From Neglectibacter timonensis (lineage in GTDB: Bacteria > Bacillota > Clostridia > Oscillospirales > Acutalibacteraceae), in assembly GCF_900048895.1 (NCBI RefSeq), contig NZ_LT160640.1, positions 186,001-250,000 on the forward strand: 64,000 nucleotides of DNA, given 5' to 3'. The notes beneath the pieces are model-generated. The model was not told the origin of the DNA, ran no database searches, and saw only the letters and a program-made list of their open reading frames with translations. This document shows positions 46,599-61,476 of this stretch, one piece after another (the stretch's first letter is position 1; every line of letters starts with the position of its first letter). The translations under genes and the position numbers were made by a program.

Positions 46599-46657
46599 GC
46601 CTAACAAACAGAAAGACAGGCTTGCTTTTAGCAAGCCTGTCTTTCTGTTTGTTAGGC
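46599..46657. terminator. 28-bp perfect hairpin, bidirectional terminator
   Basis: Arms 46599-46626 and 46630-46657 pair perfectly with a TTT loop. It separates the convergent tadA and gdhA units. It is unusually long for an intrinsic terminator and has no T-run directly after it. Confidence 0.8.
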
Positions 46658-52336: not shown

Positions 52337-54166
52337 ATGTGTGGAATTGTAGGATATATCGGAATGGAGGAGGCCGCCCCGTTTCTTCTTCACGGCTTGC
52401 AGAGGCTGGAGTACAGAGGGTATGATTCAGCCGGTGTGGCTGTGTATAACGAGACCGGCCTGCATGTGGTGAAGTCCAAGGGACGTCTCAGCGTTTTAGA
52501 AGGGATTTTGGAAGGCGGCGCTAAGCTGCCCGGCAGTGTGGGGATCGGTCATACCAGATGGGCCACTCACGGCGCTCCGTCAGACGTGAATTCCCATCCG
52601 CAGGTGAGCGACGGCGGAAAATTTGCTGTGGTTCATAACGGTATTATCGAAAATTACCTGGAGCTGAAGAATCATCTTCTGCGCCGGGGTGTGGAATTCG
52701 TTTCGGATACGGATACTGAAGTGGTAGCGCAGATGCTGGAATATTATTATCATGACGATGTGCTTGCCGCCATTCAAAAGGTGATAGACAGAGTGGAAGG
52801 CAGCTATGCTTTGGGCATCATCTGTGCAGATTGTCCGGAAAAGATTTTCGCTGTGCGCAAGGACAGCCCTTTAATTGTGGGCGTGGGCAGGGGAGAAAAT
52901 TTTATAGCCTCCGATATTCCGGCTATTCTCTCTAAAACCAGAGATATTTACCGCCTGAAGGACCAGGAAATTGCCGTGCTGACCAGGAATTCTATCGAGT
53001 TTTGGAACTCGGACCGGGAAAGGATTGAGAAGCAGTCAGAGCACATTGAATGGGATATTTCTGCAGCGGAAAAGGGCGGCTACGAGCACTTTATGATGAA
53101 GGAAATCTGCGAACAGCCGGAGGCGCTGCGAAAGACGATCTCCCCCAGAATCCGGGACGGACATATCGTGCTGGACGATATTGAGCTGACGGCGGAGCAA
53201 ATCCGGAATATTGATAAGGTGTTCATTGTAGCCTGCGGTACAGCCTATCATGTAGGAGTAGTGGCAAAATATGCCTTTGAGAAGCTGCTGAAAATCCCGA
53301 TGGAGGTGGATGTGGCCTCTGAATTCCGCTATCGCAGCCCCATTATCAATGACAGAACGCTGGTGATTATCATCAGCCAGTCTGGCGAAACGGCGGATAC
53401 CCTAGCGGCGCTGCGGGAGTCAAAAAAGCGGGGCGCCCGCGTGCTCTCCATCGTCAATGTGGTGGGCAGTACCATCGCCAATGAATCGGACGATGTGCTC
53501 TATACCTGGGCGGGGCCGGAAATTGCAGTGGCCTCCACAAAGGCATACAGCACGCAGCTTGCGGTGATCTATATGATAGTTCTTTACATGGCTGAGCAGC
53601 TGCACAACATTTCAGAACAGGAGCTTCAGGCGTATATTGAAGAGCTTCAGCGCCTGCCGGAGTTTGTGGCGGCATGTCTTACGGATAAGGAGACCATTCA
53701 GTATTTTGCATCCAAATATTTCAATGCCAAAGATATGTATTTTATCGGCAGGAATGTGGATTACGCGGCATCCCTGGAGGCCTCCCTGAAGCTCAAGGAA
53801 ATTTCCTATATCCACTCTGAGGCCTATACGGCGGGAGAGCTCAAGCATGGTCCCATTTCATTAATTGAAGACGGGACATTGGTCATTGCCATCTGTACCT
53901 ATGATAAACTCTTTGATAAGATGATGTCGAATGTAAAAGAGGTGAAGGCCAGAGGGGCGGTCGTGCTGGGAATCACCACTCAGCAGAAAAAGGAGGCAGT
54001 CTCTCAGGAGGCGGATTATTCCTTCTGCGTCCCGAAAATATCTGATTTTATGCTGCCGTCCCTGTCCATCATCCCCCTGCAGCTGTTCGCCTATTATGTG
54101 GCCTCTATGAAGGGCTGTGATATCGATAAGCCCAGGAATCTGGCAAAGTCGGTCACTGTAGAATAA
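52337..54166 (+). CDS. glmS: glutamine--fructose-6-phosphate aminotransferase
   Basis: A 609-aa amidotransferase making glucosamine-6-phosphate for cell-wall sugars. The N-terminus MCGIVGYIG gives the Cys2 nucleophile after Met removal, followed by LEYRGYDSAG and RWATHG. The two SIS isomerase domains contain ACGTAYHVG, ISQSGETADTLAAL and KHGPISLI, and the end PRNLAKSVTVE is conserved. The ATG at 52337 was chosen because Cys must follow Met. The 99-nt gap after purA is too short and unlike a glmS ribozyme, so control by that ribozyme is not supported. Confidence 0.96.
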   Translation: MCGIVGYIGMEEAAPFLLHGLQRLEYRGYDSAGVAVYNETGLHVVKSKGRLSVLEGILEGGAKLPGSVGIGHTRWATHGAPSDVNSHPQVSDGGKFAVVHNGIIENYLELKNHLLRRGVEFVSDTDTEVVAQMLEYYYHDDVLAAIQKVIDRVEGSYALGIICADCPEKIFAVRKDSPLIVGVGRGENFIASDIPAILSKTRDIYRLKDQEIAVLTRNSIEFWNSDRERIEKQSEHIEWDISAAEKGGYEHFMMKEICEQPEALRKTISPRIRDGHIVLDDIELTAEQIRNIDKVFIVACGTAYHVGVVAKYAFEKLLKIPMEVDVASEFRYRSPIINDRTLVIIISQSGETADTLAALRESKKRGARVLSIVNVVGSTIANESDDVLYTWAGPEIAVASTKAYSTQLAVIYMIVLYMAEQLHNISEQELQAYIEELQRLPEFVAACLTDKETIQYFASKYFNAKDMYFIGRNVDYAASLEASLKLKEISYIHSEAYTAGELKHGPISLIEDGTLVIAICTYDKLFDKMMSNVKEVKARGAVVLGITTQQKKEAVSQEADYSFCVPKISDFMLPSLSIIPLQLFAYYVASMKGCDIDKPRNLAKSVTVE

Positions 54167-54199
54167 CGACCCGGGATTCGAAACCGTGAATCAAAACGG

Positions 54200-54240
54200 A
54201 AGCCCCCGCCCTGTTTGATTGGAAAACAGGGCGGGGGCTT
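54200..54240. terminator. terminator of the pur-glmS cluster
   Basis: A 17-bp perfect stem (arms 54200-54216 and 54224-54240) with a 7-nt loop; GC-rich with AA/TT ends. Confidence 0.88.
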
Positions 54241-54344
54241 TGCCGAATACAGACCTGGCCATCATGGTGCACTGGTTTACTCCCCGCTTAGCCGGAAACG
54301 CGATGATCCATGTGACAGTTTTGGTGACAGGAACAGGGACAGAA

Positions 54345-54908
54345 CTAAGGATTCCTCATCTCGTCTTTTTCTCCGCCGTCCTCGACAGCTGTGACGCCGC
54401 CGAGATATCCCACTTCCTTTTGAACGATTTTTCCGCCTTTCAGGGTGAAGGTCGTGGGGTAGCTATCCGTTCGGAAGCTCCATTTCACAGAGTTTTTATG
54501 ATCCAGCATGATATGAAGATTTTCATAGTTCCGGGTAAACTCCTCAAATTTTTCTTGGTCCTCTTTGCTGCCCACTCCAATATAAACGGCGTAAACATTT
54601 TCGACACCTTCTTTTGCGTTGAGGTCGGATAATGCCGCCTGGGCATAAGGGCAGCCAACGATTGCAAGAACCAGCGTGCTGGTTTCAGGCAGCTGGGAGC
54701 TTTCCAAAATTGCGCCGTCGGAATCCTCCATTGAGAATTCCGGCACTTCCGCTCCCACCGGCAGGGGCGGGCCCGCGGAGTTGCGCACGTCCGTCAGGTG
54801 AGCCTCGTAGGCGGCGGTGTTTTTCCCCAGGAAAACAAGCAGGACCAGCGCTGCGAAACCATACAGCAGATACGGACGGATTTTTAAGTGCCTATTCTGC
54901 AGCTTCAT
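54345..54908 (-). CDS. membrane-anchored thioredoxin-like protein, single Cys
   Basis: A 187-aa protein with an N-terminal span (LLYGFAALVLLVFLGKN) and a TlpA/peroxiredoxin-type fold outside: VPEFSMEDSDGAIL, then VGCPYAQAAL, ILDHKN-like and YPTTFTLKGGKIVQKEVGYLGG with the cis-Pro. The usual CxxC is CPYA here, so the second Cys is missing; it could be a one-Cys peroxidase or a thiol carrier or chaperone. Last gene of the PadR/ABC operon, with AAAGGAG upstream and 1 nt between genes. Confidence 0.75.
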   Translation of the reverse strand: MKLQNRHLKIRPYLLYGFAALVLLVFLGKNTAAYEAHLTDVRNSAGPPLPVGAEVPEFSMEDSDGAILESSQLPETSTLVLAIVGCPYAQAALSDLNAKEGVENVYAVYIGVGSKEDQEKFEEFTRNYENLHIMLDHKNSVKWSFRTDSYPTTFTLKGGKIVQKEVGYLGGVTAVEDGGEKDEMRNP

Positions 54909-54909
54909 A

Positions 54910-55410
54910 CTAGTCTCCTTTCAGCACTTCCACCGGTTGAATTCTTGCCGCCGCCGCTGCCGGATACAGTGCGCAGAGGACCAAAAAGATTAGGGCAGCC
55001 AGCGTACAGAGAATGGCATAGGAGGGACCGCACGGCAAGGGAAAGGGCAGACCAAGGAGCCGAAAGGCCCCGGAGAATATCAGCAGCTGGGAGCCGATGC
55101 TGCCCAGCAGTACGGGAAGGACGGCGTGCTTCAGAACGGCGTCGAAAAGCACCAGCCGGTAAATGTCCCCGGTGTCCGCGCCGACCGCCATATGCACGCC
55201 GATACTGCAGCGGTTGCGCTGCACGGCGGTCAGCAGATTTCCCAGCAGGCCCAGCGCGCAGACGATGATAACGCCTCCGCCGAACAGGTCTAACAGGAGC
55301 AGGACGGCTCCACCTGCCCAGCCCTGGGCCCCGCCGTTGATGGAGAGAGCCAGCCCCAACACCAGGGCGGTCAAAAAATAGTGCAGATAAGCTGTTTTAC
55401 CGACTTTCAT
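54910..55410 (-). CDS. short FtsX/MacB-type ABC permease subunit
   Basis: A 166-aa membrane protein made mainly of the C-terminal FtsX-like domain: four hydrophobic segments, the cytoplasmic SIGVHMAVGADTGDIYRL motif and the C-terminal YPAAAAARIQPVEVLKGD. It lacks the large extracytoplasmic domain. With the longer permease next to it, it may form the second half of the transporter. AGGAGTG lies upstream of the ATG. Confidence 0.8.
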   Translation of the reverse strand: MKVGKTAYLHYFLTALVLGLALSINGGAQGWAGGAVLLLLDLFGGGVIIVCALGLLGNLLTAVQRNRCSIGVHMAVGADTGDIYRLVLFDAVLKHAVLPVLLGSIGSQLLIFSGAFRLLGLPFPLPCGPSYAILCTLAALIFLVLCALYPAAAAARIQPVEVLKGD

Positions 55411-55414
55411 AAAA

Positions 55415-56602
55415 TCACTCCTGTCGCAGCAGATAAGCAGGCTGCTGTTTCAAAATATAGCGGAAGGGGAAATAGGCGGCCGCAAAACAGGCGCAAAAGA
55501 TCACTGCGGCCGCCAGGAAAATGGTGGTGCTGTTGAACAAGAAAAGAAAGCTGCCCATATAATTGTTGATGGAATAGACAAGCACGGCCGAGACCGCTGC
55601 GCCTAACAGCAGGCCTTTGGCGCAGATCAGAGTAAGCTCGCCCAGGAATTCCCGAAACACGGCGCTGTAGGAAGCGCCTACCGCAAGCTTCAGGCCAATT
55701 TTTTGTTTGCTCTCCAGAATTCCTGCGCTGGCAAGGCTCATCATGTTGACTCCGGCTAAAAACTCTCCCAGAAAGGCCAAAAGAAAAATTCCCGAAAAGA
55801 TCATCGCGTCGCCGGAGGGAACGCGGCTACTCTCGTAGATATCTGCATCGGTCTCCGCGTGAAACACGGTGTCTGCGGTGGAAAATTGAGCGTTGAGCCG
55901 TTCCTGCAGCCGGGAAAGCCGGCTTTCAAAATCCTCTATAGAAAGCCCGTCGGGCTTTCTGATGTCGATATACGCGACATGGAGTTCCTGACGCTGCAAG
56001 GCCGGTTCATAGGGAAGGAGTAATAGCAGGGCTGTACTCTGCGGAGTCAGCAGGGAATCAAGAGGGCTTTCCAACGCCGCCGCTTCAAAAGCGGAGGTGA
56101 TCCGCAGTCTGCGGCCGTCAACCTCCACCACGGGGGAAGCCTCCAGATGCAGCCCATAGGTTTCCAAAAAAGCGGTGCTGGCAGCGCAGGTATCGGGACC
56201 TGTTTCCCAGTCTCCCTCCGGCGGCTCCATCCCCTTCACCGCAAAGAAATCCGGGGTGGAGTAGAGTACGGAAACATCGGGGATCGTGGTGTGATTGGCG
56301 GTGACGGCAGGGGGCGTACCGGTGGATTCGGCTACCGGCGCAGACTGCCAGCCTTCAGGAATCAGTCCGTCCGCTGCCTCAAATTCCTTCGGCAGCATGG
56401 TGTGCAGAGCGAACAATGTGTTTTTTTTCACCTCTTTGGGGGAAAGATAAATTTTGGCGTTTTGCTCGTTTTTGCGCCGGATTTCCGCCGTTTCGGCGTT
56501 GTCCGCTATTTGGCGCTGCACGCTGCAGAGGAAGAAGATTCCGGCAACCACGCCCACCGCCATTCCGAGAACCAAAAAGGCACGATATGTTTTTTTCAGC
56601 AT
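55415..56602 (-). CDS. FtsX/MacB-type ABC permease with extracytoplasmic domain
   Basis: A 395-aa permease with an N-terminal span (AFLVLGMAVGVVAGIFFL), an extracytoplasmic MacB-PCD-like region of about 220 residues and three C-terminal spans, ending YFPFRYILKQQPAYLLRQE. The inner motif KIGLKLAVGASYSAVFREF resembles FtsX domains. These mechanotransmitting ABC systems do not transport through the channel but use ATP to act on extracytoplasmic partners or peptides. Confidence 0.85.
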   Translation of the reverse strand: MLKKTYRAFLVLGMAVGVVAGIFFLCSVQRQIADNAETAEIRRKNEQNAKIYLSPKEVKKNTLFALHTMLPKEFEAADGLIPEGWQSAPVAESTGTPPAVTANHTTIPDVSVLYSTPDFFAVKGMEPPEGDWETGPDTCAASTAFLETYGLHLEASPVVEVDGRRLRITSAFEAAALESPLDSLLTPQSTALLLLLPYEPALQRQELHVAYIDIRKPDGLSIEDFESRLSRLQERLNAQFSTADTVFHAETDADIYESSRVPSGDAMIFSGIFLLAFLGEFLAGVNMMSLASAGILESKQKIGLKLAVGASYSAVFREFLGELTLICAKGLLLGAAVSAVLVYSINNYMGSFLFLFNSTTIFLAAAVIFCACFAAAYFPFRYILKQQPAYLLRQE

Positions 56603-56611
56603 AGCTCCACC

Positions 56612-57274
56612 TCAAAGAATTTGTCCGTCGCGCATTTCTACGATGCGGTCGGCGTAGGAGGCGATCTTGACATCGTGTGTGACGAGAATCAAAGTTTTAT
56701 GGAGCGTTTCACGTACCCTGGCCAGCAACTCGATCACAGCCTCGCTGTTTTCGTTATCCAGGTTTCCGGTAGGCTCGTCTGCCAAAAGGATTTTTGGATC
56801 ATTTACGAGGCTGCGGGCTATAGCTACCCGCTGCTGTTCGCCGCCGGATAGCTCATGGGGCATACGTTTCTCCAGTTCAGCAATTCCCAGCCCTTCCAGC
56901 AATGGCATAACGATATCCCGATGCTGCTTTCTGGAAACCTTCCGATATTTCAGCGGCAGAGCTACATTTCGAAACACACTGCATTCCGGCAGCAGATAAA
57001 AGGCCTGAAAGATGAAACCGAATTTTTCCCGACGCAGAAGAGCCCGGCTTTTCCGGTTTAAAGCTTCAGCACTTTTACCTTCAATCCGGTATTCTCCACC
57101 GTCATAGGTATCCATGCAGCCGATCACGTTCAGGAGGGTGCTTTTTCCACAGCCTGATTTTCCCATGACCGCTATAAATTCTCCATCTTGAATCTTCAAA
57201 GAAATATCCCGGAGAGCCTCTACCTTGCCAAGATTACTTTGATAGGTCTTTTTTACTTGCTTTAATTCCAGCAT
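56612..57274 (-). CDS. ABC transporter ATP-binding protein (MacB/LolD type)
   Basis: A 220-aa ATPase: Walker A GKSGCGKSTLLN, Q-loop region, signature [16 protein letters not shown], Walker B ILLADEPTGNLD and switch His VTHD. It powers the two FtsX-type permeases downstream. The ATG at 57274 starts 1 nt after the padR stop; an in-frame ATG at 57286 would overlap padR and abut the GAGGGG. Confidence 0.92.
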   Translation of the reverse strand: MLELKQVKKTYQSNLGKVEALRDISLKIQDGEFIAVMGKSGCGKSTLLNVIGCMDTYDGGEYRIEGKSAEALNRKSRALLRREKFGFIFQAFYLLPECSVFRNVALPLKYRKVSRKQHRDIVMPLLEGLGIAELEKRMPHELSGGEQQRVAIARSLVNDPKILLADEPTGNLDNENSEAVIELLARVRETLHKTLILVTHDVKIASYADRIVEMRDGQIL

Positions 57275-57275
57275 A

Positions 57276-57794
57276 TCAAGTCTCATCCCCTCTCTGCAGC
57301 AGCTCCAGGCATCGATCTGCCCAACGGATATCAGCCTCCAGCTTCAAAATACTGCGTTCCAACAGCAGGTACGGTCCCAACTGTTCCTTGGGCGTTTCCA
57401 GCTTTTTTTTGGTCAGCCTTTGCATTTGTGAGATCAGCAGCTTTTTGTATTCAGCAATCATCTGGAGAAAACCTTCCGAACTCAGTACCTGCATGGCCGC
57501 TAACTTAAAGGAGAGCTCGTCATAAAGAACCATACTTTCCTTTCCCGGTTCCATCAGCCAGTGGTACAGTTCCCGCCGTCCCAATTCCGTAATAGCATAG
57601 ATCTTTTTGTCTGCACCCCCATTTTCCCTCAGGGAGATGAGGCGGTCTCTCTCCAATCTTAACAGGGTCGAATAAACTTGTCCAAAATTGAGCTGGGTTT
57701 CATGGAGCAGCAGCTGGTCATAATGCTGCTTAAGCTCGTATCCGTGGAGATCTCCCTCTGTGAGCAGAGCTAAAAAAATATGTTTGACACTCAT
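57276..57794 (-). CDS. PadR family transcriptional regulator
   Basis: A 172-aa repressor with the winged helix (HIFLALLTEGDLHGYELKQHYDQ, then FGQVYSTLLRLERDRLISLREN) and the C-terminal dimerisation helices typical of PadR subfamily s2. It controls the ABC operon it heads. The ATG at 57794 gives the normal MSVKHIFLALL start; a GTG at 57806 is in frame but sits in the operator/ribosome-binding region. Confidence 0.93.
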   Translation of the reverse strand: MSVKHIFLALLTEGDLHGYELKQHYDQLLLHETQLNFGQVYSTLLRLERDRLISLRENGGADKKIYAITELGRRELYHWLMEPGKESMVLYDELSFKLAAMQVLSSEGFLQMIAEYKKLLISQMQRLTKKKLETPKEQLGPYLLLERSILKLEADIRWADRCLELLQRGDET

Positions 57795-57801
57795 TTTAAG
57801 A

Positions 57802-57870
57802 AACACCCTATCCCTTAATATATACTCAGTACATATATCGAGTATATATTAAGGGATAGGGTGTTGTCAA
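57802..57870 (-). promoter_or_regulatory. padR operon promoter inside a 26-bp perfect inverted repeat
   Basis: Perfect inverted repeat arms at 57802-57827 and 57840-57865, spacer 12 nt. On the minus strand TTGACA (57865-57870) and TATACT (57841-57846, spacer 18) form the promoter; the -10 lies in one arm, and the central TATACT...AGTATA is a PadR-type operator. The other arm covers the padR ribosome-binding region (AAGGGATAGGG), so the transcript could fold and hide it. Confidence 0.8.
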
Positions 57871-57930
57871 GCATATTTTCGTGCAGATTGGGGAAGCTTT
57901 TGCCAAGTATTGAAGAATCAGGCCATGTGT

Positions 57931-57953
57931 GGTAAGATAATTCTCATCTTACC
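57931..57953. repeat. short inverted repeat upstream of guaA
   Basis: GGTAAGAT (57931-57938) and ATCTTACC (57946-57953) with a 7-nt loop and no T-run. A leader hairpin or operator; no guanine or xanthine riboswitch elements were recognised in 57871-58123. Confidence 0.4.
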
Positions 57954-58123
57954 AAGAGATAAAGACGAATTATGTATGTTTTCTTAAAGTAAGTGCCGAG
58001 CCGTTAGGCGTAATTAATTCAGCGGTTACTCCAAAGCAGAAATAGCAGGAGATAGAGGGCCCGCAGTCTCTGTGCGGGATACCGTATAACAGCGTGGACC
58101 GGAGAAAGGAAGATGGTAAAACA

Positions 58124-59662
58124 ATGGAAAATGCCTCTCGCCATGAATCTGTAGTGGTTCTGGATTTCGGCGGGCAGTATGCCCAATTAATCGCTCGACG
58201 GATGCGGGATTTGAATGTTTACTGCGAGATTAAATCCTTCAGAACAGACCCGGAGCAGCTTCGGGAGTATAAGGGAATCCTTTTCACAGGCGGACCAAAC
58301 AGCGCCTATGCGCCGGACGCTCCGCTGTGTTCAAAGTCTGTATTTGAATTGGGAATTCCCGTGTTGGGTATTTGCTACGGCGCGCAGGCTATGGCTCATC
58401 TGTTGGGCGGCAGGGTGGAAGCAAGCCCGGTTCATGAATTCGGCAAAACCCTCACCTCTTTTTCTGAGGATTCCCTGTTGTTCCGAGATGTGCCGGAAAG
58501 TGTCTGCTGGATGAGTCATAACGATTATATTTCCGGATTGCCGGAGGGCTTTTCTATTTGCGCACAGAGTGCTCATTGTCCTGTGGCGGCCATGGAATAT
58601 CCTGGGAAAAAATTGTATGCAGTACAGTTTCATCCTGAGGTGGAGCACACGGAATATGGAAATCAGATATTCCGGAACTTTCTGTATGAGATATGCGGCT
58701 GTAGGGGCGATTGGAAAATGGCCTCCTTTGTGGAGGAAACCATCAGCGCTTTAAAGGAACGGATCGGGGGTAAAAAGGTGCTTTGCGGCTTATCCGGCGG
58801 CGTGGATTCCTCTGTGGCCGCCATGTTGGTGCACCGTGCGATCGGAAAAAATCTCACCTGTATTTTTGTGGATCACGGATTGCTGCGTAAAGGTGAGGGG
58901 AACCTGGTAGAGCAGGTATTCCGAAGGGAATTTGATATGAATATTATCCGGGTCGATGCCAGAGAACGCTTTCTTCAGAAATTGAAGGGGGCGGAGGAGC
59001 CGGAGGAGAAACGGAAGATTATCGGCGAAGAATTCATCCGGGTTTTTGAGGAGGAGTCCCAAAAGCTGGGGAAGGTGGAGCTCCTGTGTCAGGGAACCAT
59101 CTATCCTGATGTGGTGGAAAGCGGCACAGGAGAGGCGGCTGTCATTAAAAGTCATCACAATGTGGGCGGCTTGCCGGAAGATATCGGCTTTGAAGGCCTG
59201 GTGGAGCCCTTGCGGGATCTGTTTAAGGATGAGGTACGGCGTGCGGGCATTGAGCTGGGGATTCCGGAAAATCTGGTATGGCGTCAGCCTTTCCCTGGGC
59301 CCGGTCTCGCTGTGCGCATCATGGGGGAGATCACAGAGGAAAAGCTGGACACATTGAAAGAGGCCGATGCCATCTTTCGGGAGGAGATTGTAAATGCAGG
59401 GCTGGAACGCAGCGTCGATCAGTATTTTGCGGTGCTTACAGCCAACCGCAGCGTAGGCGTGATGGGAGACGGACGCACCTATGGCGTGACTGTGGCGCTG
59501 CGCGCTGTGACCACTACGGATTTTATGACAGCGGATTGGGCCCGCCTGCCCTATGAGCTGCTGGGAAAAGCGTCGAACCGCATTATCAATGAAGTCCCCG
59601 GCGTCAACCGCATTGTCTACGATATCACGTCTAAGCCTCCCGCGACGATTGAGTGGGAATAA
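58124..59662 (+). CDS. guaA: GMP synthase (glutamine-hydrolysing)
   Basis: A 512-aa enzyme making GMP from XMP. The glutaminase half has [17 protein letters not shown] (Cys nucleophile) and the His-Glu pair FHPEVEHTE; the synthetase half has the PP-loop [11 protein letters not shown] and ends KPPATIEWE. The reading frame is complete to its normal C-terminus, as expected if an integrated element has restored the 3' end. The ATG at 58124 has AAAGGAAG upstream; a GTG at 58094 lacks a site. Confidence 0.97.
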
Positions 59663-59671
59663 ATGGAAGAA

Positions 59672-59711
59672 AGCCCGAAAGTCTTTGTTTGCAAGGCTTT
59701 CGGGCTCTTTT
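59672..59711 (+). terminator. terminator after guaA
   Basis: A 10-bp stem (AGCCCGAAAG at 59672-59681, CTTTCGGGCT at 59697-59706) followed by CTTTT. It isolates guaA from the convergent integrase gene. Confidence 0.82.
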
Positions 59712-59744
59712 AATGATAGCCGCGATGCTGTTATGACGCTGAAA

Positions 59745-60794
59745 TCAGGTTTTTAGCAGGGAGTCCAGCGTTTGAGCAAGTTCTCCTTGCTTGTGCGGGT
59801 ATAGATGGGAGTAGGTATTGAGGGTCGTTTCTATGTTCTCATGGCCGAGTCGTTCGGCTATCAAGAGTGGCGAAAAGCCGAGTTCGATAAGTAATGAGGC
59901 GTGGCTATGTCTGAGGTCATGCACTCTAATCTTTTTAACTCCGCTCTGGCTGCTACCTCGAATCATTTCCCTGTATAGGGCATGCTTGGTTAATGGGAAA
60001 ATGCGCCCATTATCATAGATGTGTGAGATATACTCTTTAAGTTCTTCGCAAAGAAAATTCGGCAAAGCGATAATCCGATTGCTTTTCGGAGTTTTGGGCT
60101 CCGTAATAATATCTTTCTTGCCAATTCGCTGATAGGATTTATTGATAGTTATGGTGTTTCCCTCAAAGTCAATATCATCTTTGGTCAAGGCTAAGAGTTC
60201 GCCTTCCCGTATGCCGCACCAGTAAAGGACTTGAAACGCTGAGTGCATTTGTGGTTTGTCCTCGATTGCTGCGGCAAATCTAATGTATTCGTCTTTTGTC
60301 CAAAACTGCATTTCCTTTGCGTTCTTGCGTCCTATGCTTCCCGCCTTATGACAAGGATTTTCTTTTAGACCATAATACTTAACGGCGTAGTTAAAAATCG
60401 CGCAAAGCTGATTATTGATTGCTTTTAGGTATGTTTCGGCGTACTCGTCACCCATGAGCTGATTTTGCCATTGTCGAACCGTTGTTGCTTTAATGTCGCT
60501 GATTTTCATTTTGCCGAAATAAGGCAAAATCTTTGTCCTTATTAGGTGCTCCTTGTTGTTCATGGTTGACACCCTGAGTCGGCTTGCCATATCTGTATTA
60601 TACAGAGAAATTAGGCTTGCCATTGTCATTTGCGGATTTTCCTGCAATTTGTCAAGAAAAGCGCGTTCCCATTCTTTGGCGTCTTTCTGTTTAGTAAAAC
60701 CTCTCTTTGTTTTACGCTGCTGTTCCCCTTGCCAATCGGTATAGTAGAAACAGCAATACCACGTTCCGCGGTCCTTGTCCTTATATACTGGCAT
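59745..60794 (-). CDS. int: tyrosine recombinase (integrase)
   Basis: A 349-aa phage-type integrase. An N-terminal arm-binding (AP2-like) region (YKDKDRGTWYCCFYYTDWQG), a SAM-like core-binding domain and the catalytic domain with Arg in GIREGELLAL, HDLRHSHAS, LGHENIETT and the Tyr nucleophile in LNTYSHLY. It directs insertion and, with an excisionase, excision of the element. The gene ends 82 nt after guaA; AGGAGG precedes the ATG. Confidence 0.95.
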   Translation of the reverse strand: MPVYKDKDRGTWYCCFYYTDWQGEQQRKTKRGFTKQKDAKEWERAFLDKLQENPQMTMASLISLYNTDMASRLRVSTMNNKEHLIRTKILPYFGKMKISDIKATTVRQWQNQLMGDEYAETYLKAINNQLCAIFNYAVKYYGLKENPCHKAGSIGRKNAKEMQFWTKDEYIRFAAAIEDKPQMHSAFQVLYWCGIREGELLALTKDDIDFEGNTITINKSYQRIGKKDIITEPKTPKSNRIIALPNFLCEELKEYISHIYDNGRIFPLTKHALYREMIRGSSQSGVKKIRVHDLRHSHASLLIELGFSPLLIAERLGHENIETTLNTYSHLYPHKQGELAQTLDSLLKT

Positions 60795-60862
60795 AACATT
60801 TGCCTCCTGTTTTGCCTTTTTATCTATATTATCGCAAATAGTAAGATTCGCGAGCCCCTGAA

Positions 60863-60924
60863 TTTGGAGTACCTACGGCGTCCTATATCAGCTCCGTTTT
60901 TACAGAGTAGGTTTATACTCCAAA
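60863..60924. repeat. imperfect inverted repeat upstream of int
   Basis: TTTGGAGTACCTAC (60863-60876) pairs with GTAGG (60907-60911) and TACTCCAAA (60916-60924) with a 4-nt bulge. It lies between the terS and int genes and could be a regulatory or recombinase arm site, or an RNA hairpin. Confidence 0.4.
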
Positions 60925-60960
60925 AGAAAGAAAACTTGATGTGGGAGACCGTAGGCTTGT

Positions 60961-61476
60961 TTATGGTTGCCAATCTCCATTGAGTTCTGGAATATCATCA
61001 AAATTTGCGCTTTTACCACAAGCGTCAATCATTTCAAAAAGATTATTTTGCGTCTCTGTATTTGCTTTATGGTCTGTTAGCCCTGTATATTTGGCGAGGA
61101 ATTCCAACGCTTTCAATTTATCGTGTAGCTTGACTTCCGTGCCGTTCTTTGTAATCTTGATACTGGAAACGGCACCTTGCTTTTCGGGTGGAAGTTCTTT
61201 TAGGCGAAGTTCCCCGTCTATGACTTCAACATAATCAAAAATGTTGGAAAATCCAAGTGCCGCCATTTCCCACAGTACTCGTTCGGCGGAAATTCGTAGT
61301 CCCGCAGAGATTTCCGCCTTGCGCCGCCTTACTTCTGCCTGAATCTCAGGAATAGAGAGCAGGTGAACCCCCTGCGAATTCGCACGTTTTGAGGAATACC
61401 CCGCAGCAATAGCCGCCCGTGTAGCGTTGAAGTCTATGATGTATTCGTCAATAAATCGTTCCTGTTTCTCGGTCAT
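60961..61476 (-). CDS. terS: phage terminase small subunit
   Basis: A 171-aa protein. Its N-terminus MTEKQERFIDEYIIDFNATR followed by AAIAAGYSSKRANSQG is the signature of the Terminase_2 family, which recognises packaging sites and recruits the large subunit. No terL, portal or capsid gene follows; the integrase comes next instead. The ATG at 61476 has AAAGGCGGT upstream and overlaps the preceding gene's stop by 4 nt. Confidence 0.9.
   Translation of the reverse strand: MTEKQERFIDEYIIDFNATRAAIAAGYSSKRANSQGVHLLSIPEIQAEVRRRKAEISAGLRISAERVLWEMAALGFSNIFDYVEVIDGELRLKELPPEKQGAVSSIKITKNGTEVKLHDKLKALEFLAKYTGLTDHKANTETQNNLFEMIDACGKSANFDDIPELNGDWQP

Follow-up and report, generated by a model that had tools for sequence, protein, structure and literature searches.

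The window, i.e., the whole stretch of 64,000 nucleotides of the Neglectibacter timonensis genome that was analyzed, carries on its minus strand a cluster of five genes that starts with a PadR-type regulator and continues with genes of an ABC-transporter type, in the following order of reading:

57276–57794, minus strand: padR, subfamily-1 PadR regulator of 172 residues (176 residues from the GTG at 57806), assigned with Pfam
56612–57286, minus strand: ABC ATPase, with the NCBIfam families DarD, MacB and LolD among its best matches, all below their cut-offs
55415–56602, minus strand: FtsX-like permease of 395 residues, present in five orthologous operons
54910–55410, minus strand: short FtsX-like permease of 166 residues, with equivalents of about 171–172 residues in G028 and G007
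54345–54908, minus strand: membrane-anchored thioredoxin/AhpC-TSA-like protein (Pfam 4.5e-05, 23.8 bits, cut-off 26)

The 176-residue form of the padR product matches the Pfam families PF03551 (PadR; 4.6e-14, 52.6 bits against a cut-off of 27) and PF10400 (Vir_act_alpha_C; 5.8e-11, 43.4 bits against a cut-off of 22.4), and since both domains score above the Pfam cut-offs the protein is assigned to subfamily 1. Its length of 172 or 176 residues agrees with the size of PadR-s1 members, which have a large multi-helix C-terminal domain and about 180 residues, and the best matches of solved structure to a profile of five orthologues are, over nearly the full length, AphA (1yg2) and PadR (6jyi).

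The gene order padR-ABC-FtsX-FtsX-thioredoxin-like is common to five Bacillota orthologues, i.e., G028, which is assigned to the same genus as the window's genome, G007, G741, G813 and G686. Among these five operons the thioredoxin-like gene has a tblastn match in G028 and G007 only, and G741, G813 and G686 have in its place an open reading frame of 184–208 residues that looks similar by eye. The second FtsX-like permease is half-size in G028 and G007 as it is here, and has 378–385 residues in G741, G813 and G686; we read the half-size form as a lineage-specific shortening.

Promoter and inverted repeat

The promoter region of the operon is occupied by a long palindrome, which is best described as a core with an outer arm on either side:

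57841–57870, minus strand: predicted sigma-70-type promoter of the padR operon, 11/12 consensus matches
57819–57848, no strand: candidate core operator TATATACTCGATATATGTACTGAGTATATA, a 30-bp palindrome over the -10 box and the predicted start
57849–57865, no strand: outer arm on the promoter-spacer side, 17/17 pairs with 57802–57818, lineage-specific
57802–57818, no strand: outer arm on the ribosome-binding-site side, containing AAGGGATAGGG, lineage-specific

In the promoter scan, the -35 box TTGACA (57870–57865) and the -10 box TATACT (57846–57841) are separated by an 18-bp spacer; the same two hexamers are present in 5/5 orthologues, with a spacer of 17 in all five. The inverted repeat consists of two 26-nt arms (57802–57827 and 57840–57865) that are 100% complementary and enclose a 12-nt loop, precisely as the original prediction had it. 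The -10 box lies inside the arm 57840–57865, with which the -35 box shares one base, and the other arm harbors a Shine-Dalgarno-like stretch, AAGGGATAGGG (57816–57806, minus strand), 11 nt before the ATG at 57794–57792, so that the claimed placement of promoter and ribosome-binding site in opposite arms holds as well. Compared with the GGAGAGG present in two orthologues, this stretch is the weaker match; an in-frame GTG at 57806, 5 nt past the end of its AAGGG, may be an alternative start. The suggestion that operator and promoter are fused ahead of a padR operon stands insofar as the palindrome joins the promoter to what is likely a PadR operator. A mirrored promoter on the plus strand was considered and rejected: TATACT is present at 57822–57827, but the hexamer at 18-nt spacing is AAGAAA, and none was called.

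From base composition, about 6e-10 perfect repeats with 26-nt arms and a loop below 60 nt are expected per 64 kb, and simple arithmetic puts the chance of 17 outer perfect pairs beyond the 9-nt core arm at about 0.25^17. In 464 kb of the same genome (the window and 20 sampled stretches of 20 kb), the padR repeat ranks second by length among 17 perfect repeats with arms of at least 17 nt, and its loop is the longest of all 17. The repeat is real and unusual, and long perfect arms per se are not unique in this genome. The longest of the 17, with 28-nt arms and a 3-nt loop (46599–46657), is likewise in the window and resembles a terminator hairpin.

The other 16 long repeats are short-looped (2–9 nt), and several of them have terminator-like A/T-rich flanks or A-run arm ends, which is what might lead one to take the padR repeat for a terminator, the end of a mobile element or a MITE. 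Such an origin is extremely improbable: the repeat is present in a single copy in the genome, no terminator-like site was called in 57600–58200, the loop has 12 nt, and the repeat sits on the padR promoter. Beyond the arms, 57775–57789 and 57865–57879 pair at 14/15 positions across a 12-nt asymmetry; this possible extension was left out of the palindrome, because it consists largely of the conserved TTGACA and an A-run that is found also in G028 and G007.

Leader RNA

Based on the consensus elements, transcription is predicted to start at about 57834, 6–8 nt past the -10 box and inside the loop of the repeat. Only one of the two arms should hence be part of the message, and a 26-bp RNA hairpin would not be expected. 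This speaks against the original prediction that the 5' end of the transcript folds back to sequester the padR ribosome-binding site, since the first arm would be untranscribed. Were the whole repeat transcribed, the two-arm hairpin would be very stable (in a plus-strand fold, -48.2 kcal/mol, with shuffles averaging -19.75), yet this requires transcription from outside the repeat, and the promoter scan listed no further minus-strand promoter-like site in 57871–58200. On the plus strand, a weak promoter-like site within padR (57659–57688, 9/12 consensus) could conceivably drive antisense transcription across the whole repeat; with 3 sites in the scan against 1.2 in shuffles, it is treated as chance level.

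Leaders with a single arm were modeled from 57836, 57834 and 57832. Extended to 57760, they fold with -14.6, -12.8 and -11.7 kcal/mol, and extended to 57770, with -10.3, -8.5 and -7.1 kcal/mol. The shorter set does not surpass shuffled sequences (z -0.90, -0.30 and 0.13, with 36, 74 and 101 of 200 shuffles equal or better), and of two orthologous leaders, that of G028 is likewise no better than shuffles (z 0.24) and that of G007 modestly better (z -1.86). A local hairpin with G-U pairs, UUAAGGGAUA/UGUUUCUUAA (-4.6 kcal/mol alone), covers the ribosome-binding-site-like stretch in the one-arm leader, in which the mean unpaired probability of that stretch is 0.28–0.29 in the models. This pairing raises slightly the standing of an RNA hairpin that masks the ribosome-binding site, which with the predicted start in the loop, unremarkable one-arm folding and arms that are not conserved we still regard as very unlikely. 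What the models do allow is a modest, possible masking by local one-arm structure that uses neither the two-arm pairing nor folding beyond chance; as a means of RNA control, the local hairpin was rejected for its shuffle-like folding.

Between padR and guaA lies a small hairpin (57930–57954) with 9-nt arms TGGTAAGAT/ATCTTACCA and a 7-nt loop, which falls partly in a gap of the aligned G007 intergenic region and has no Rfam match at the gathering score; for 54000–61000 as a whole, Rfam likewise returned no known RNA family at the gathering score.

Conservation of the core palindrome

Relatives of the regulator were collected at several levels. A search with the single protein gave matches in 21 of 60 relatives at E <= 0.001 (own genome included), with G028 and G007 as the only close ones; the order-wide search at 1e-12 gave 4 of 394 genomes, i.e., the own genome and three distant ones, and the genus search 3 of 29 (own included). 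Profile A1 retrieved 5 of 398 Bacillota genomes at 1e-25 (own included), 2 of 9 and 1 of 5 genomes in two other groups, all of them already known, and 1 of 236 in the class, which was the window's own. No orthologues were found in viral contigs, and a contig scan for the padR locus gave one match, on a G028 contig. A further 25 records stem from Actinomycetota and one other group, ten of which, actinobacterial plasmid relatives, were checked for palindromes only.

The five Bacillota orthologues carry, at the same position in the promoter, a core palindrome like TATATACT...AGTATATA. Its outer eight pairs are complete (8/8) in five genomes, the window's included, and number 6/8 in G686. A protein search led to G028, G007 and G686, so that these three support the core independently; G741 and G813 were retrieved with the core DNA pattern and do not. 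Counting by protein alone, three of the four orthologues retrieved at E <= 1e-25 have it. The fourth, G1020, lacks the TATACT...AGTATA core, which lowers our confidence in reading the core as an operator; G1020 is a more diverged relative, its protein is truncated at the contig end, and it has a different palindrome 110–151 nt before the ATG. The core is also absent upstream of the distant padR genes of G248, G174, G069 and G044 (27–32% identity).

The DNA pattern TATATACTNAGTATATA matches in 5 of 398 Bacillota genomes and its reversed control in one of 398. Two of the five matches, in G741 and G813, lie before this PadR-ABC operon and adjoin a PadR gene whose product is 40% identical; the other three (L044, L045 and L048) are not before padR and adjoin small, putatively MazEF-like genes. 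None of the window's own sub-palindromes is an exact match to the pattern. Scanning for core-like sites with at most two mismatches, which covered the window's genome and three other sampled genomes of the genus, gave a single site in the window's genome, and this points to autoregulation.

Within TATATACTCGATATATGTACTGAGTATATA, TACT and AGTA occur as TACT(N14)AGTA and as TACT(N1)AGTA, and the inverted repeat overlaps the -10 box of the gene's own promoter, as does one set of the cdPadR1 repeats, with a spacing of N14 instead of N11-12. The canonical operator of LmrR, LadR and PadR, ATGT-N8-10-ACAT, has no counterpart, as no ATGT-N6-12-ACAT is found within the 64-bp palindrome. We read the core as a candidate PadR autoregulatory operator that covers the -10 box and the predicted start.

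Outer arms

Outside the core, the full symmetry is found in the window's genome alone among those compared. All 17 outer pairs are formed in the window (17/17), and 7, 3, 4, 4 and 6 of 17 in the five orthologues, which is within the range of slid controls (1 to 8); G028 retains the first three outer pairs. The count covered the orthologues with a core to anchor on, which G1020, G248, G174, G069 and G044 do not have. The original prediction had proposed to look for conservation of the arms as pairs, and had named conservation of the center alone as the sign of an accidental repeat; it is this last pattern that the five orthologues display, as covariation of the outer arms is not seen and only the TATACT...AGTATA center is kept.

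The conserved core is extended perfectly by 17 bp in either direction; the five orthologues lack this extension, and in the genome it is single-copy. This suggests that the outer arms are a lineage-specific inverted copy that probably arose by template switching. Comparison with orthologous segments did not show which side had been copied: the shuffle counts were 1066 and 676 of 2000 for the spacer side and 218 and 942 of 2000 for the ribosome-binding-site side, and on neither side did the similarity to the orthologous segment clearly exceed that of shuffles. Template switching is reported to convert imperfect palindromes into perfect ones in E. coli reporters (PMC7202029) and has been proposed as a source of hairpin stems (PMC8794818). 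The resemblance to such quasipalindrome mutations is the one-step change of a short or imperfect palindrome into a long, perfect one; the difference is that here the event is deduced from one genome against diverged orthologues and not observed.

An alternative is that the outer arms were selected as part of an extended operator, at which additional PadR dimers bind, giving tighter repression or an oligomer spreading like that considered for cdPadR1. Perfect palindromes longer than the core do precede other PadR genes, namely 36 bp in G028 (arms of 18), 37 bp in L061 (arms of 15), 45 bp in G069 (arms of 17) and 42 bp in G1020 (arms of 12), and the several shifted complexes reported for cdPadR1, with possible higher-order oligomers (PMC5050560), would fit binding of this kind. 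The outer-arm sequence AACACCCTATCCCTTAA, however, contains neither TACT nor AGTA, so that within the palindrome TACT...AGTA pairs are confined to the core, and the outer arms are unpaired in the five compared operons. An extended operator is on these grounds unlikely; it is not rated lower because of the 36–45-bp palindromes in the PadR family. The same palindromes qualify the initial statement that PadR operators are usually shorter: four relatives have palindromes of 36–45 bp before padR, and part of the symmetry outside the 30-bp core may have a function or be under selection. In other upstream regions the arms are short, with at most 9 nt in G174 and G044 and in nine of the ten actinobacterial plasmid relatives, L061 being the tenth. 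The palindrome upstream of padR at L036 (G069) is of the form TATATATCAGTGTGATA...TATCACACTGATATATA.

A mutational by-product remains the most likely reading of the outer arms. That they represent a recent and selected extension, with one template switch lengthening the operator from 30 bp to a palindrome of 64 bp that recruits further PadR dimers or forms a cruciform, we consider distinctly improbable; if true, it would mean that operators can lengthen in a single mutation.

Model and comparison with known PadR systems

Taken on the sequence evidence, the locus is likely a PadR autoregulatory operator of a five-gene ABC-transporter operon whose outer arms are a template-switch copy. PadR dimers would bind the central 30-bp palindrome and thereby cover the -10 box and the start, and bound PadR would block RNA polymerase until a ligand, perhaps the transporter substrate, releases it. 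The two 17-bp outer arms would most likely stem from a single event of polymerase template switching at the core (snap-back), and the extended copy would have survived because the -35 box, the -10 box and a usable ribosome-binding site stayed intact.

The nearest studied case to the padR core is that of the TACT/AGTA sites of cdPadR1 from Clostridioides difficile, which requires TACT(N11-12)AGTA repeats, one set of which lies over its own predicted -35 and -10 boxes (PMC5050560). Shared features are TACT/AGTA inverted repeats with an AT-rich middle in the regulator's own promoter, and the presence of two sites in the promoter. In contrast to cdPadR1, which is a short subfamily-2 PadR with N11-12 spacing, the regulator here belongs to subfamily 1, and its half-sites are N14 (and N1) apart within one palindrome that the outer arms extend by 17 bp. 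With LmrR, LadR and PadR (PMC3506622, PMC4517056, PMC5428041), the operon shares a padR-type gene with an inverted repeat in its promoter and, for LmrR, the link to an ABC transporter, but the half-site is TACT/AGTA instead of the ATGT/ACAT of those operators.

The core thus provides an operator candidate for a PadR-ABC-FtsX-thioredoxin-like operon found in distant Bacillota, and the outer arms are likely a natural example of a promoter palindrome lengthened via template switching. They emphasize that a striking perfect repeat need not mean an RNA switch.

Genomic neighborhood

G007 retains the neighbors of the operon, guaA upstream in divergent orientation and glmS at some distance downstream. 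The GuaA encoded in the window (58124–59659, plus strand) has 60% identity with its syntenic counterpart in G007, and the nearby GlmS is 91% identical to that of G007 over the 359 residues present on that contig. A second genomic match to the C-terminal part of GuaA (residues 179–512) is found at C10:185355–186353, with 53% identity. About 80 bp past the 3' end of guaA lies a gene for a phage-type integrase (59745–60794, minus strand), followed by open reading frames that by eye look phage-like; an element is possibly integrated at the end of guaA, a gene that can serve as an attachment site.
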